From NCBI GenBank assembly GCA_021810625.1, contig JAJZIJ010000009.1:1-64000 (forward strand): a DNA stretch of 64,000 nt, read 5' to 3'. Origin of the DNA: Acidobacteriota bacterium (GTDB lineage Bacteria; Acidobacteriota; Terriglobia; Terriglobales; Acidobacteriaceae). The notes under the pieces were generated by a model. It saw nothing but the letters and a program-made list of their open reading frames with translations, did not search any database and was not told the origin of the DNA. Made by a program: the position numbers and the translations under genes. The stretch's first letter is position 1. Every line of letters begins with the position of its first letter. Shown here piece by piece: positions 7,089-28,617 of this stretch.

Positions 7089-9284
7089 ATGGCTGGATCG
7101 CCCCCTGCTGAAATTCGTTACTTCAACCGCGAAGAGTCCTGGCTGGACTTCAATCGGCGCGTGCTGGAAGAGGCGCAGGATTCCACCAACCCGTTGCTGG
7201 AGCGAGTAAAGTTTTTAGCAATTACAGCCAGCAATCTGGATGAGTTCTTTGAAGTTCGCGTCGCCGGCATTCTGCAACGCATTGAGGATGGTTACGCCGA
7301 GCGCGGCCCGGATGGGCTGATGCCGCAGCAAATTCTAAATCGCATCACAGAGAAGACCCACGCTTTTGTGGAGGAGCAGTACGTCTGCTGGAAGCAGGAA
7401 CTACTCCCTGCGTTGGCACAAGCCTCCATCCGCGTGCTTCCCTGGCAGCAGCTTGACGAGGCCGCGCGCGAACACGCCATCAGCTTTTATCAAAATGAAG
7501 TCGATCCGCTGCTCACTCCGATCACGATTGATCCCAGCCATCCATTCCCGCGTGTACTCAACAAGGCTCTGTGTCTTGCGTTGCTCCTGCGTCGCAAGCG
7601 AAAGACGACCGCCGGGCCGATTCTGGGCGTGGTCACGGTGCCGCGCGCGCTGCCGCGTCTGGTACCCATCCCTTCGGCTGTCGGAACCTATGACTACATT
7701 TTTTTGCACGACCTGATCGAATCCCAGGCCGCCGCGCTCTATCGCGGCTATGAAGTTCTATCGACAGCCGCCTTTCGCGTCACTCGCAACAGTAACCTCT
7801 ACCTGCAAGGGGAAGAATCCCGCAACCTGCTGGAGAGCGTGCGCGCGGAATTGCACAACCGCCGCAAAGGCGACGCGGTTCGCATGGAGATTGAAAAAGA
7901 CGCGCATCTGGAAATCATCGAACGGCTGCGCACAAACTTTGAACTGGAGGAGTTTCAGGTCTTCCGCACCGATGGCCCCGTCAATCTGTCGCGGCTGATG
8001 AATCTCTACACCAAGACACCGATGCCGCAGTTGAAATATCCGCCGTTTATTCCGCGTGAACTGCGCTTGAATCGACAATCCTCCAACCTATTTGACGAAC
8101 TACGCAAGCGCGACCTTTTGCTGCATCATCCCTACGATTCCTACGACGCGGTCGTGGACATGATTCAGGCCGCCGCCGAGGATCCAGACGTACTTTCCAT
8201 CAAACAAACACTCTATCGAACCACAGCCAACTCGGCGATCTTTCAAGCGTTGCGCGAAGCGGCCCAGAGCAAGGAAGTAACCGTCGTCGTCGAACTGATG
8301 GCGCGCTTTGACGAGGCTTCCAACATCCGCTGGTCGCGTGACCTGGAGGACGCTGGCGTACAGGTCTTTCACGGCATCGTCGGCATCAAGACGCATTCCA
8401 AAATGGCCCTGTTGGTGCGGCGCGACCCGGACGGCAGTGTTCGCCGCTACGCGCATCTGGGAACCGGCAACTACAACGCAGAAATGGCACGTTATTACAC
8501 CGACATCAGCCTGCTGACCGCCAATCCAATCCTTACCGGAGCCGTTCACTCCGTTTTTAATTATCTGACGGCCAACTCGGAATCCGATGATTATCGTCCG
8601 TTGCTGGTGGCTCCCCTCACCCTGGCCGAGGGATTCATTCGCCTGATTCATCGTGAGGCTGAACATGCGCGCAATGGCCGCCCGGCGTGCATCCTTGCCA
8701 AGATGAACTCGTTGCTGGAGCAAGGAGCGATCGAGGCGCTATATCAGGCATCGCAAGCCGGAGTCTCCATTGACCTGATCGTTCGTGGCATCTGCGCGCT
8801 GCGTCCGGGCGTTCCGGGCCTCAGCGAAAACATTCGCGTGCGCTCCATCGTTGGGCAATTTCTGGAGCACAGCCGCATTTTTTATTTTCAGAATGACGGC
8901 GACGAGGAAATCTTTTGCGGCAGCGCCGATTGGATGCAGCGCAACTTCTTTGAACGTTGCGAGGTCGTTTTTCCTGTGCTGGATCCGCTGCTGCGCCAAA
9001 GAATTCGCGAGGATATTTTCAGCGCATATCTGGCCGACACGCGAAAAACCCGTTGGCTGCTGCCCACCGGACAGTACGTTCGCGCAACCAACACGCTGGC
9101 AGCATCCTCCGGGGGATTTTCCGCGCAGGAGTATTTCATGCGTCAGGCGGAAGGCAAAGCGCTGGTCGAACTGCCTTCCCTGCCGGCAACGCCACCGCCA
9201 GCAACAAAAAATATGTCCGCCTTGAAACATGGCCCGCACAGGCCGGAGCGACGCAAACGAGCAGCGAAAAAAATCGCATCTTAA
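7089..9284 (+). CDS. ppk: Polyphosphate kinase
   Basis: 731 aa, normal for PPK1, which reversibly polymerises the gamma-phosphate of ATP into polyphosphate. The N-terminal domain shows YFNREESWLDFNRRVLEEA and FLAITASNLDEFFEVRVAG. The catalytic half shows KQTLYRT near residue 380, RFDEASNIRW, GIVGIKTHSKMALLVRR, and RYAHLGTGNYN with the autophosphorylated His. A second conserved region with FCGSADWMQRN lies near residue 615. The C-terminal tail (last ~35 residues) is Ala/Pro/Lys/Arg-rich. It heads a plus-strand block with a membrane protein, a methyltransferase and sixA; the convergent ppx/gppA beyond could hydrolyse the product. Confidence 0.97.
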   Translation: MAGSPPAEIRYFNREESWLDFNRRVLEEAQDSTNPLLERVKFLAITASNLDEFFEVRVAGILQRIEDGYAERGPDGLMPQQILNRITEKTHAFVEEQYVCWKQELLPALAQASIRVLPWQQLDEAAREHAISFYQNEVDPLLTPITIDPSHPFPRVLNKALCLALLLRRKRKTTAGPILGVVTVPRALPRLVPIPSAVGTYDYIFLHDLIESQAAALYRGYEVLSTAAFRVTRNSNLYLQGEESRNLLESVRAELHNRRKGDAVRMEIEKDAHLEIIERLRTNFELEEFQVFRTDGPVNLSRLMNLYTKTPMPQLKYPPFIPRELRLNRQSSNLFDELRKRDLLLHHPYDSYDAVVDMIQAAAEDPDVLSIKQTLYRTTANSAIFQALREAAQSKEVTVVVELMARFDEASNIRWSRDLEDAGVQVFHGIVGIKTHSKMALLVRRDPDGSVRRYAHLGTGNYNAEMARYYTDISLLTANPILTGAVHSVFNYLTANSESDDYRPLLVAPLTLAEGFIRLIHREAEHARNGRPACILAKMNSLLEQGAIEALYQASQAGVSIDLIVRGICALRPGVPGLSENIRVRSIVGQFLEHSRIFYFQNDGDEEIFCGSADWMQRNFFERCEVVFPVLDPLLRQRIREDIFSAYLADTRKTRWLLPTGQYVRATNTLAASSGGFSAQEYFMRQAEGKALVELPSLPATPPPATKNMSALKHGPHRPERRKRAAKKIAS

Positions 9285-23623: not shown

Positions 23624-24352
23624 TCACAGAATGTCATCCGCCGCTGCGCAGCGAATGGCCAGCAGCATCCGGTGACCACAGAAGTGATAGGTACGCTCCA
23701 CCAGCAGACGATCTCCGACCGGATGCAACTCATAATCAGAGCCGGAGACAATGGTCGGAACCGAGAGCGCGCATCCAGAGTCCAACCCCAGCATCCAGTT
23801 CTTCCAGCCCCCGGCAATCATGTTGCATATCTCGCCAAAAGCATCCAGCAACGTGCCATCCAGTCGATACGGGCCACGATGCGGCCACTCGCAGACGCCA
23901 GAACTGTTCTCCTCCAAATCGCGCGTATGCGGATCACGCATTGTCGGATGCCGCTGCGACAGCGGAGGCGACAACAGGTGCCAGGCCATGACGGCAACCG
24001 CCTCTGGTTCCGCGCTCATGGTGCAGGAACCGGAGAGCTTTCCGGCAAAACCGAGAATCGCGCTGACGGTCTCCTGCCAACCCATCGGCTGCGCCGGAGA
24101 TGGGCACGCCTCAGAGGAATCCTTGGGTGCGCCCATGAGAATCTCCACATCTGCGATCAAGGGCGGAACCAAGGGGGAAATCGCAGATGAAACCACGAGC
24201 GCGCCCTCTGGAAACTCCACATCCGGGATGCCCAGCATACGCTCGAAGACCTCCTGAACAGCCGCATCCAGCGCCTGCGCCGGATTTGCAGCCAAAAGAG
24301 GCGCGGCAACAACCCTATGCATGGCGCGCGCAATTGCCGGATCCAGAGCCAT
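23624..24352 (-). CDS. CheX-like chemotaxis phosphatase (divergent)
   Basis: 242 aa. The C-terminal half has a CheC/CheX-type phosphatase helix with the E-x3-N pattern (DAFGEICNMIAGGWK near residue 165), followed by the characteristic ALSVPTIVSGSDYEL strand. The N-terminal half (about residues 40-115) resembles a first domain half (QETVSAILGFAGKLSGS) but lacks an obvious second E-x3-N. CheX-type enzymes dephosphorylate CheY-P; a cheY-like gene lies directly upstream (96 nt). ATG 24352 is used; a TTG 6 nt earlier is also possible. Confidence 0.72.
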   Translation of the reverse strand: MALDPAIARAMHRVVAAPLLAANPAQALDAAVQEVFERMLGIPDVEFPEGALVVSSAISPLVPPLIADVEILMGAPKDSSEACPSPAQPMGWQETVSAILGFAGKLSGSCTMSAEPEAVAVMAWHLLSPPLSQRHPTMRDPHTRDLEENSSGVCEWPHRGPYRLDGTLLDAFGEICNMIAGGWKNWMLGLDSGCALSVPTIVSGSDYELHPVGDRLLVERTYHFCGHRMLLAIRCAAADDIL

Positions 24353-24447
24353 TGACAAGTATTTGCCTCTCTTCCCAAGTGCAGACTGGCAGAAGGCGCG
24401 ATCTCGAAACTTCGCTCCTCCTGTTTTCTTTCAAGATTCCAGAATTT

Positions 24448-24831
24448 TCATGCCCCAATCATCAACGGCAGCACCCGCTCCTGAATCTGTTCGGGCGTAA
24501 ACGGCTTGCGGATATAGGCCTGCGCCCCATACATCAACGCGGATCGGACATGGCTTTCGCTGCTCTCCGTGGTAATCATCACCACGGGAACCTGCCGCGC
24601 CAGATTCTCAGCCTGCATCTGTTGCAGCATCCCCAGTCCGTCCATCCCTGGCATGTTGATGTCGCACAGAATCAGATCGAAGGTCTGCCGCCGTAAAAGA
24701 GCCAGCCCCTCCTCGCCGTTGCCAGCCTCGGCCACGATCTCCATATCCACCCCCCCCTGACGCAGGGTGCGTTCCACAATCTTGCGCATGACCGCCGAAT
24801 CATCCACGATCAATGCTCGGATCCCTGGCAT
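24448..24831 (-). CDS. CheY-like single-domain response regulator
   Basis: 127 aa receiver domain with no output domain. It has the acidic pair in ALIVDDSAVMRKI, the phospho-acceptor Asp in LILCDINMPGMDG, the switch Thr in VVMITTES and the Lys in YIRKPFTPEQI. FliM in this cluster keeps the CheY-binding EIDALF peptide, so this protein can plausibly bind the motor. Its place between motor genes and the CheX-like gene supports a chemotactic role; other functions are possible because no kinase genes are visible. Confidence 0.88.
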   Translation of the reverse strand: MPGIRALIVDDSAVMRKIVERTLRQGGVDMEIVAEAGNGEEGLALLRRQTFDLILCDINMPGMDGLGMLQQMQAENLARQVPVVMITTESSESHVRSALMYGAQAYIRKPFTPEQIQERVLPLMIGA

Positions 24832-25248: not shown

Positions 25249-26472
25249 TTATGCTCGCGCTTCGTCTTCCACGGGAGCGTATCGGCAGATCAGGTCTTCC
25301 ACCTGATGAATACGCGGGATGGGAATCACCGGAGTCGCGCCCCCTGTTCCTGAAGCGGAACGACGAGCAGCCATCGGCATCGGAGTACGCCACATCCGCA
25401 GCCAGAGATACTGATGCAGCCGCACCAGGCGGGCTTCATGCGGACGCACCCGCTCAATGACCTCCGCCAATTTGTCAGCGACCGCCTGCGCGGTTAAAGC
25501 CTCGGTCAGCACCGTCTTGGGAAACACTGCGTCCATCATGCGCTCGTGCGCGCGCAGATACTGCGTGGCAGGCACCACCCCGGTCTCAATCCGCAGCCCG
25601 GTCATGCGCGTGACCGCCAATGCCGCCGCAGCGTCCAGACGGTCTTCAAATCCCAGATAGAGGATGCGCCCGGAGGCAACGCGCACCGGCAGCAGGCCGA
25701 AGCTATCCAAAAACAGACGTGGAATCAGCGTGGCCACCGTCTCCGGCTGGTGGATGGCGACCGGAAAAATTGGACAGCCCCACTGCATCGCCAGCGCCCG
25801 CGTCACCCGTTCCTCCGGCAGCTTGCACTGGCGCATCAGCCATGCCCCGATGCGTCCCTTACCCACCGTGCGTTGCGCCTCCAGGGCGGCCCGCAACTGT
25901 TCTTCTGTGATCCAGCCCTGCCCCAGCAGAATCAGGCCGAGTGGCATCCGATGCCGATGCTGCTGCGGTTCCCAAGGCATGTCTCCGGCCAGTTCCCTGG
26001 CCACCACCGTTTCGACAAAACTCCGCATGCATTCCGCGCTACAGGCCCACCGTCCCTCCAGACGTGGCGCCTGCCGCCGACGCCACGATCGCAGCCAATT
26101 CGTCTTGCAATACGGATTCATGCAGGTGGAAGACGAGAGGACTTCGCTGGCAGCCTCGTCGCCAAAATTGTTTTCCGTCAGCGCAAATCCAGCGTCGTCC
26201 TCCCCTTGCAGGGGAAGCCGTCCGTTGGCGCGGCGCAGACGGGCGCTCTGCTCCCGTTGCTCCCAGGAGAGATTGCGATTCCAGGACAGATTGCGCTCCC
26301 AGGGCAAATTACGATTCTCGAACGGCGCGGAATCCGTCTCCCGGCCTCCGCCGTCGCCATCGCTGCCGGAAAACAGCGCTTCCTCCCAGGGACTCTGGGC
26401 TGTCACTCCCTGACGCGACTTGCTTCGCGCCTGCGACGCGCGCAAATGAGTACGCAGATTTAGAAGAGGCAT
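25249..26472 (-). CDS. Cys4-motif protein with tandem MshEN motifs
   Basis: 407 aa. The N-terminal ~105 residues are low complexity with Trp-rich repeats (NLPWERNLSWNRNLSWE). Residues C117, C122, C144 and C148 form a probable zinc site (CMNPYC ... CSAEC). Residues 178-200 (LGLILLGQGWITEEQLRAALEAQ region) match the MshEN pattern LGxxLxxxGx6Lx3LxxQ exactly, and 208-230 (IGAWLMRQCK...ALAMQ) form a second, weaker copy 30 residues on. MshEN domains of the type II secretion/type IV pilus ATPase family bind c-di-GMP. No ATPase domain follows, so this may be a stand-alone sensor. Its start overlaps the upstream fliN-like gene by 13 nt. Confidence 0.72.
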   Translation of the reverse strand: MPLLNLRTHLRASQARSKSRQGVTAQSPWEEALFSGSDGDGGGRETDSAPFENRNLPWERNLSWNRNLSWEQREQSARLRRANGRLPLQGEDDAGFALTENNFGDEAASEVLSSSTCMNPYCKTNWLRSWRRRQAPRLEGRWACSAECMRSFVETVVARELAGDMPWEPQQHRHRMPLGLILLGQGWITEEQLRAALEAQRTVGKGRIGAWLMRQCKLPEERVTRALAMQWGCPIFPVAIHQPETVATLIPRLFLDSFGLLPVRVASGRILYLGFEDRLDAAAALAVTRMTGLRIETGVVPATQYLRAHERMMDAVFPKTVLTEALTAQAVADKLAEVIERVRPHEARLVRLHQYLWLRMWRTPMPMAARRSASGTGGATPVIPIPRIHQVEDLICRYAPVEDEARA

Positions 26473-27560
26473 CGTATCGTCTCCAAACGGCGGCGCGGTT
26501 CCGCCACCTCGGTTACATGCAGTCCAAAATTTCCGCCCACCAGCACCACTTCGCCGCGAGCCACAATGCGGTCGCCCACCACCAGATCCACCGGCTCCTG
26601 AACATGGCGATCCAGTTGCAACACGTCACCCGGCCCCAGTTCCAGCACCTTGCGCAGCGGCATCTCCACGGCGCCAAAACGCAGCGTCGCCTCCAGTTCG
26701 ATGTCCAGCAGCAAATCCAGTCGCTCTGGATGCGTGCGGAAGAGACTCGACTCCTCCGGATTTGACTCGCTGCGACGCCGTGCCGCGCGCGCCTCCGCCG
26801 CCGTCGCCGCCCGATTCATGGATTCCTCGGCAGCCTGGGCCTCAGCGGCGCGAATATCGGCAACCTGCCGCGCAACAAACTCGGCAGTTTTGGCCGCCGC
26901 AGCATCCGCTTCCTTGGAGGTGGGGGCCGCATCGAGGGCCGCCTCTGAACTTATGTCCGGGGCTGCTGGCTCCATGCGGGTTTGTATCGCGATACGCAGC
27001 GCAATCTCCCCGGCGCGCAACACATACGACGATTGCTCCACTCCATCTGCGCTGCCCACCGCGCTCTCCCCAGCCATCGCGGCAGCGGTCGCTGTCTCTT
27101 TCGGATCAGCGCCCGGATCAGCACCCGGATCGGCGCCTGCATTCTCGATTGCGTCAGCACCCGCCTCCGCATCGGCCCCTGCATCGGCCTCCGCATCGGC
27201 GGCCCGCATCTCGCGCAGAACGGCTTTGTACTCGCCCTCACCCTCCGCCAGCATCTGCGCGGTCAGACGCGCTGCCGACTCTTCGAGAAGGTTCTTCCAT
27301 TCCGCCAGAATGCCCTCATCCAGCGCCACCTGCGCATCGAGCGGCCTGCGCCCAGCCAGTTGCGCAAACTGCACCATCTCGGCATCAGGAACGGCAATCC
27401 GCAGCACCCCCCGCATGGGGCCATCCAGAGTGATGGTGCTCAGAAACAGCGCCGCCGGGCGAGGCTCCGTCAGTTCCGGCGTGACCGTCAGCGCCGCCCC
27501 GGAGCGTTCTTCGAGTAGCTTCTCGAACTGTTCGATCCAGCCCTGCATTACGTTCGGCAT
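26460..27560 (-). CDS. fliN: FliN-like motor switch protein with long N-terminal part
   Basis: 366 aa. The C-terminal ~80 residues are a SpoA (FliN/FliM C-terminal) domain: LDLLLDIELEATLRFGAVEM, PLRKVLELGPGDVLQLDR, PVDLVVGDRIVARGEVVLV and FGLHVTEV. The N-terminal ~115 residues form a CheC/FliN_N-like domain (LRIAVPDAEMVQFAQLAGRR). Between lie about 150 residues of Ala/Asp/Glu-rich low complexity, including GAD/EAD repeats near residue 125-150. FliN makes the bottom of the C ring and binds FliH during export. Canonical FliN is about 100-150 aa, so this one is much enlarged. It lies 79 nt after fliM. Confidence 0.85.
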   Translation of the reverse strand: MPNVMQGWIEQFEKLLEERSGAALTVTPELTEPRPAALFLSTITLDGPMRGVLRIAVPDAEMVQFAQLAGRRPLDAQVALDEGILAEWKNLLEESAARLTAQMLAEGEGEYKAVLREMRAADAEADAGADAEAGADAIENAGADPGADPGADPKETATAAAMAGESAVGSADGVEQSSYVLRAGEIALRIAIQTRMEPAAPDISSEAALDAAPTSKEADAAAAKTAEFVARQVADIRAAEAQAAEESMNRAATAAEARAARRRSESNPEESSLFRTHPERLDLLLDIELEATLRFGAVEMPLRKVLELGPGDVLQLDRHVQEPVDLVVGDRIVARGEVVLVGGNFGLHVTEVAEPRRRLETIRCLF

Positions 27561-27639: not shown

Positions 27640-28617
27640 TTACTCCGCAGTCTGATTGAGCAGCGGATAGTTGCGCGCCACAACCTGCGCCCCGCGATGC
27701 TCCCCGCTGCGCACGGGAACAGCCTGAAACAACGACATCCCGGCCACGCGCAACTCCGCCATCGTCGAAGCCGGAAGGCCCAGCCGCAGCACTGTTCCCG
27801 AATGCATCGCCTCCAACTCCGTGGCCGAGACCCGCACCGAGGGCAACTGCAACGCCGCGCCAATCTTCACCTGCCGCACCCGCTCCTCCATCCGCGCCAG
27901 CATCTCCGGCGAGCGGCGACGGTTCTGGCGGCCCCAATCGGTAATCAGGCGGCGCAAAATCGTATTTGAGACCACGGCGGGAAACGCAAGATTCAAGATG
28001 CCCTGCACCTGCGGCGTACGCATCTCAAAACTGACCGAAAGGGTCTTCTCGCTGACGGCCATCAACCGGGCGATCTGCGTCTGCATCTGGCGTTTTTCAA
28101 AGGTAAAGGTCAGCCCCACTGGCTGCCAGGCCGCGCTTAGCTCGCGGCAAATGATCTCCACCACGCTGCCCAGAATCGACTCTTCAATATCGGTTAGTTC
28201 GCGCACCGCCGCCACCTTGCCCTCGCCGCCCAGCAGCAGGTCGATCATGGGCAGCGCCAGATTGAGGTCGAGTTGCAAAACGCAGATCGCGCCCAGCGGC
28301 TCCAGACGCACCGAGCCGACATAGCAGATGTCCGGGATGCGCTGCAAAAACTCGGCATACGGCAACTGCTCGGCGGAGACCAGATTGACCTGAAAATGAC
28401 TGCGCAGAAACGCCCCAAGATTGTGCGTCAGGTTGCGGGCAAAAATGTCATTCAGCAGGCTGATGGCCCGCATCTGCTCGTTGTTAATCTGACCACCGCG
28501 CGTGAAGCTAAAGGGCTGGATGCGCGGGTTGATCTCCTGCGGTTTTTGCTGCGTGGCCTTGGTGCGGGCCTGGAGAAAAAGCGCGTCGATTTCATCTTGC
28601 GCCAGCGGCTTATCCAT
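27640..28617 (-). CDS. fliM: Flagellar motor switch protein FliM
   Basis: 325 aa, normal length. Residues 7-14 (QDEIDALF) are the CheY-P binding peptide. The middle domain has the FliM GGxG-type loop (IDLLLGGEGKV) and LTDIEESILG. The C-terminus is a SpoA domain (RVRQVKIGAALQLPSVRV and ELRVAGMSLFQAVPV). It forms the C-ring wall and controls rotation direction. It is 76 nt after fliA. Confidence 0.95.
   Translation of the reverse strand: MDKPLAQDEIDALFLQARTKATQQKPQEINPRIQPFSFTRGGQINNEQMRAISLLNDIFARNLTHNLGAFLRSHFQVNLVSAEQLPYAEFLQRIPDICYVGSVRLEPLGAICVLQLDLNLALPMIDLLLGGEGKVAAVRELTDIEESILGSVVEIICRELSAAWQPVGLTFTFEKRQMQTQIARLMAVSEKTLSVSFEMRTPQVQGILNLAFPAVVSNTILRRLITDWGRQNRRRSPEMLARMEERVRQVKIGAALQLPSVRVSATELEAMHSGTVLRLGLPASTMAELRVAGMSLFQAVPVRSGEHRGAQVVARNYPLLNQTAE

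Follow-up and report, generated by a model that had tools for sequence, protein, structure and literature searches.

The window, a 64,000-nucleotide stretch of a contig from an Acidobacteriota bacterium, carries an open reading frame with an ATG start on the minus strand (25249..26472) that encodes a protein of 407 residues, henceforth Cys4-MshEN. This is a genuine gene: it has orthologs, and comparison with the ortholog from the same genus (L086) reveals purifying selection (dN/dS 0.164 overall), with the strongest constraint in the helical subdomain of MshEN (dN/dS 0.026) and the weakest at both ends of the protein. From the N-terminus, the product comprises a low-confidence tail of ~108 residues, a Cys4 module, an MshEN/GSPII domain identified by profile, structure model and fold matches (residues 175-316; 25525..25950, minus strand), and a C-terminal alpha/beta segment defined by conservation and the model (residues 318-361; 25390..25521, minus strand) in which W357 and R359 are invariant. 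Short imperfect repeats (RNLPWE, RNLSWN and RNLSWE) occupy residues 53-72 of the disordered tail (26257-26316, minus strand).

The four cysteines of the Cys4 site (26029..26124, minus strand) are spaced C117-x4-C122 and C144-x3-C148 and are kept in 46-47 of 47 aligned orthologs as well as in all eight further orthologs. In the structure model, a hairpin is predicted at this site, followed by a helix that begins at the last Cys pair, an arrangement that looks treble-clef-like. Judging from the Cys spacing and the predicted hairpin-helix, the module may hold zinc and have a role in docking. Pfam detected neither an ATPase domain with a Walker A motif (~90 residues remain past MshEN), nor a PilZ domain, nor a receiver domain in the 407-residue protein. 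The original prediction of a "stand-alone" sensor was right about the missing ATPase, but the label is not quite exact, as the conserved Cys4 module and C-terminal segment are also present. This segment may possibly be what is left of an ATPase N2 domain, as hhalign of the segment alone against PilB N2 gave a weak match (E 0.13) with the order correct. We found no plasmid match and no viral structural match.

Flagellar gene neighbourhood

The gene resides in a flagellar operon on the minus strand, with fliA, flhA, flhB and fliR immediately upstream in the same gene run. It is accompanied by fliM (27640..28617; Pfam FliM 2.2e-36) and by a fliN-like gene (26460..27560; Pfam FliMN_C 2.7e-21), with which it shares the predicted 13-nt overlap (26460..26472, minus strand), as the coordinates confirm. 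A gene for a CheY-like response regulator lies directly downstream (24448..24831, minus strand; Pfam 7.7e-31), followed by a cheX-like gene (23624..24358, minus strand; Pfam CheX 4.1e-11) whose product aligns with only part of the Pfam CheX domain. The same cheY-cheX pair past the Cys4-MshEN gene recurs in ten other loci.

The fliN-like gene encodes a protein of 366 residues that terminates in a FliN C-terminal domain. In its predicted model, residues 1-199 form a domain that resembles CheX, CheC and the middle domain of FliM (Z 10-12.6) and that Pfam does not recognise. From the pairing of such an N-terminal domain with a FliN C-terminus, we predict a FliY-like protein. In some orthologous clusters, its place is taken by a short FliN of ~100 residues.

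The gene order, which the original prediction had proposed to search for in other Acidobacteriota, is conserved there. All 40 ortholog loci first read have a flagellar context, and in 32 of them the Cys4-MshEN gene comes directly after fliN. One or two genes, often HDOD-like and membrane coiled-coil-like, separate the two in seven loci from other families, and the remaining locus begins at a contig end. In L064, for example, fliN and the Cys4-MshEN gene are separated by an HDOD-like gene (7359-8279) and one that encodes a coiled-coil-like protein with a single membrane pass (8310-8732). By its coordinates, the gene overlaps fliN by precisely 13 nt in 16 loci (the window and 15 others) and by 4 nt in seven, which suggests coupled translation. 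In seven further deep-branching loci the gene also follows fliN, with flgF next in six; in L132 it lies at the contig end, before flgF. Five loci (L058, L071, L080, L081 and L083) have no fliM beside fliN and the MshEN gene, and FliM matches occur elsewhere in four genomes of this set (G202, G281, G241 and G210). Gene order thus places Cys4-MshEN in a switch and signal-termination setting, a reading that does not identify its partner.

The MshEN fold and its c-di-GMP contact positions

The window copy scores 19.9 bits against Pfam MshEN (residues 243-312), under the cut-off of 23.1, while 33 of 44 orthologs are matched by this model (best E 2.3e-15). The family profile aligns with V. cholerae MshE (5HTL) at E 6.3e-22 and with PilB at E about 1e-30. 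Structure prediction, which had been called for beforehand, gave an AlphaFold2 model with pLDDT >90 across most of residues 180-360 and the two-subdomain GSPII fold, a four-helix bundle plus an alpha/beta subdomain. The top PDB match of the model is the c-di-GMP-bound GSPII-B domain of T. thermophilus PilF (Z 11.9, rmsd 2.7, ~135 residues), with c-di-GMP-bound MshE (5HTL) at Z 11.4 and a Foldseek E of 2e-8 for these c-di-GMP-bound structures, whereas XpsE, a non-binder, scores lower (Z 9.1 and 6.5). On the evidence of profile and predicted structure, the protein contains an MshEN fold.

Two tandem motifs lie within this domain. Motif I (residues 177-200, PLGLILLGQGWITEEQLRAALEAQ; 25873..25944, minus strand) is an exact fit to LGxxLxxxGx6Lx3LxxQ, as first noted, with a chance expectation of about 1e-5 occurrences in a protein of such composition. 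Motif II (residues 207-230, RIGAWLMRQCKLPEERVTRALAMQ; 25783..25854, minus strand) carries deviations and falls outside the published relaxed motif. The predicted order, a Cys4 site and then two motifs 30 residues apart, is borne out by residues 117-148, 177-200 and 207-230. The canonical spacing is 29 because the linker is normally five residues (PMC5013675), so the linker of the window copy is one residue longer. With reference to the c-di-GMP contact residues of MshEN defined by Wang et al. (PMC5013675), the window copy retains L10, G11, L25, L29, Q32, R38, G40, L58 and Q61 and departs at four positions (Arg9 to Pro, Leu39 to Ile, Gly47 to Cys and Leu54 to Val).

Across the orthologs, 55 sequences (47 aligned and eight further) show no substitution at the equivalents of Gly11, Gly40 and Gln61. 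In the 47 aligned sequences, Leu10, Leu25, Leu29 and Gln32 are almost invariant, position 38 is Arg or Lys in 46, substitutes at Leu39 and Leu54 are all aliphatic, the Arg9 position is Pro in 39, and the Gly47 position is variable. Mean entropy is 0.64 at the 12 ligand positions versus 1.95 in the remainder of the subdomain (p = 1.4e-5), so that, in these alignments, the contact positions are its best-conserved part. The eight further orthologs (L125-L131 and L162), mostly from other families or deep-branching, all keep both Gly (11 and 40) and both Gln, and in five of them both motifs begin with Arg or Lys. Given the canonical motifs in deep-branching orthologs and in a divergent copy in genome G248 (see below), a canonical c-di-GMP site is probably ancestral in the family.

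How do the deviations bear on binding? By analogy with PilF K167L, a Lys-to-Leu change at position 1 that still binds c-di-GMP at 2 nM (PMC11731258), substitution at the Arg9 position can be tolerable, as it may be for the Pro of the window copy. The third-position Gly of the motif is important for binding and a Leu-to-Ile change costs little, and binding is not universal among GSPII domains (PMC12002112). XpsE, for its part, is without G11, L29, R38, G40, L54, L58 and Q61 (PMC5013675). Taken at the level of sequence, the conservation pattern makes it likely that Cys4-MshEN binds c-di-GMP.

Distribution across genomes

We surveyed 297 genomes sampled across Acidobacteriota, 69 FliM-positive and 228 FliM-negative. 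A full-length Cys4-MshEN is found in 39 of the former and none of the latter (Fisher p = 3e-30, with genomes that are not independent and counts read from tables). Neither of two outcomes that would have refuted the original prediction, a predicted structure without the MshEN fold and absence of the gene from related flagellar clusters, was seen, although some flagellated relatives are without it. All but one of the full-length copies (38) are high-scoring and lie within the flagellar cluster. The 39th is the divergent copy of G248, a 274-residue Cys4-MshEN protein (L183:7246-8070, minus strand) whose motifs are canonical, whose linker has five residues and whose gene lies near secD/secF-like genes; this genome is FliM-positive and flagellated, but the copy sits outside its flagellar cluster.

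Because 30 of the 69 FliM-positive genomes, 17 of them from a single family (f23), have no recognisable copy, Cys4-MshEN is not essential for the flagellum in Acidobacteriota. The 12 FliM loci that we read among these genomes contain no Cys4-MshEN gene, and the slots after fliN are empty, hold unrelated small ORFs, or carry genes of the HDOD-like and membrane coiled-coil-like kinds. Genes similar to the pair of L064 occur in the slot of the L143 and L144 clusters. Distances between Cys4-MshEN proteins track those of FlhA (Spearman 0.87) more closely than those of FliN (0.50), whose distances are noisy because FliN is short and variable in architecture. The tracking of FlhA is consistent with inheritance of Cys4-MshEN together with the flagellum.

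Scanning genome contigs with a 7-sequence profile returned Acidobacteriota orthologs and, from other phyla, ATPases and one other MshEN protein. No full-length Cys4-MshEN was found at E 1e-28 among the best eight candidates per genome in Planctomycetota (294 genomes) and Myxococcota (284), which is not proof of absence, since scoring was limited to these candidates and the scores of the most divergent Acidobacteriota copies are close to the threshold. The matches in these two phyla cover the MshEN region alone, mostly in ATPase-sized frames.

A candidate c-di-GMP effector at the flagellar switch

MshEN, its mode of c-di-GMP binding, its fusion to chemotaxis domains and the existence of c-di-GMP effectors at the motor are all known. 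Cys4-MshEN shares with MshE and PilF GSPII-B (PF05157) the predicted fold over 135 residues, the tandem motifs and the Gly, Leu and Gln contacts. Unlike these proteins, it has no ATPase, carries Cys4 in front, has a linker longer by one residue, is encoded in a flagellar operon and, in the window copy, has Pro for Arg9 and Cys for Gly47; the missing ATPase domain also sets it apart from the GspE/PilB secretion ATPases. The YcgR/PilZ flagellar brake is a known c-di-GMP effector at the motor, and Cys4-MshEN would resemble it in linking c-di-GMP to motor output, although it has no PilZ domain. MshEN has been reported fused to REC, HD-GYP, CheA or CheX domains (Wang et al., 2016; PMC5013675). Common to these fusions and Cys4-MshEN are a place outside secretion ATPases and a chemotaxis setting, but the window MshEN is unfused to a signalling domain and belongs to a conserved flagellar-operon gene after fliN. 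The Cle proteins of Caulobacter, CheY-like receivers with an Arg-rich tail, are c-di-GMP effectors at the flagellar switch (PMC5677366), the role proposed here for Cys4-MshEN, yet the two have no domain in common. In the open-access papers searched, we found no publication linking MshEN to the flagellar switch or describing a flagellar-operon Cys4-MshEN protein.

We think it probable that Cys4-MshEN arose from the N-terminal part of a pilus or secretion ATPase and is a c-di-GMP effector dedicated to the flagellum, with the C ring as its most likely place of action. The MshEN domain would most likely have been acquired from such an ATPase, and the protein would be produced in step with FliN through the overlapping genes, one c-di-GMP being bound between the two tandem motifs. 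The protein would act at the base of the flagellum on its cytoplasmic face, and there most likely on the FliM/FliN ring. In PilF, the two subdomains change their relative orientation when ligand binds between the motifs (PMC11731258), and we infer that a similar ligand-driven shift could alter docking on the FliM/FliN ring, with altered rotor switching, torque or assembly as the outcome.

For the C ring itself as the target, we put the chances at about even. Within the effector reading, a less probable sub-case is a target other than the C ring, either the export gate (FlhA, FlhB, FliH-FliI) or, through Cys4, gene expression with FliA. It would fit the position of fliA, flhA, flhB and fliR just upstream, the likely ancestry of MshEN in domains serving export or pilus ATPases, and the closer agreement of distances with FlhA than with FliN. 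Against this, the noise in the FliN distances tempers the comparison, fliN is the conserved overlapping neighbour, and cheY-cheX come next in many loci.

The N-terminal domains of GspE/PilB dock GspL, PilM or PilZ. Cys4-MshEN could likewise be a flagellar assembly or structural adaptor, with the MshEN fold kept as a mere protein-docking module and c-di-GMP binding gone. Binding has indeed been lost in several MshEN domains, XpsE and PilF GSPII-A among them (PMC5013675, PMC12002112), and in the Cys4-MshEN family Pro predominates at the Arg9 position and Gly47 lacks conservation. However, the ligand contacts are the most conserved positions of the subdomain, unlike in XpsE, and deep-branching orthologs have canonical motif starts, so we regard an adaptor without ligand as unlikely. 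A chance motif match or spurious ORF, for which only the sub-threshold Pfam score of the window copy could speak, is ruled out for practical purposes by the profile match to MshE (6e-22), the confident fold, purifying selection and orthologs in many genera.

Returning to the proposed c-di-GMP effector, a broader and more tentative reading, to which we give somewhat less than an even chance, is that Cys4-MshEN is an old, vertically inherited part of the Acidobacteriota flagellum, with the c-di-GMP-sensing front part of a type IV pilus ATPase remodelled into a zinc-finger protein of the switch. Pili and flagella would then be controlled by one receptor fold, and tuning of the motor would proceed without PilZ or CheY-like effectors. 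c-di-GMP governs swimming versus staying put, and its route to the flagellum is known for few effector types (PilZ, CheY-like). That many swimming Acidobacteriota, members of a phylum abundant in soil and little studied, keep by fliN a gene for a zinc-finger-like protein resembling the sensory end of a pilus motor suggests a possible new such route, and a receptor gene in this position offers one defined protein for probing how c-di-GMP reaches the flagellum. If the proposal is true, the sensor domain of a pilus ATPase is reusable on a different machine.

The genome itself encodes c-di-GMP enzymes, diguanylate cyclases included: of its five GGDEF proteins two are GGDEF-EAL, and the GG(D/E)EF motif is intact in all four that were read. 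Its single PilZ match lies on another contig, where the open frame is no longer than 149 residues, and its one other MshEN is inside an ATPase.
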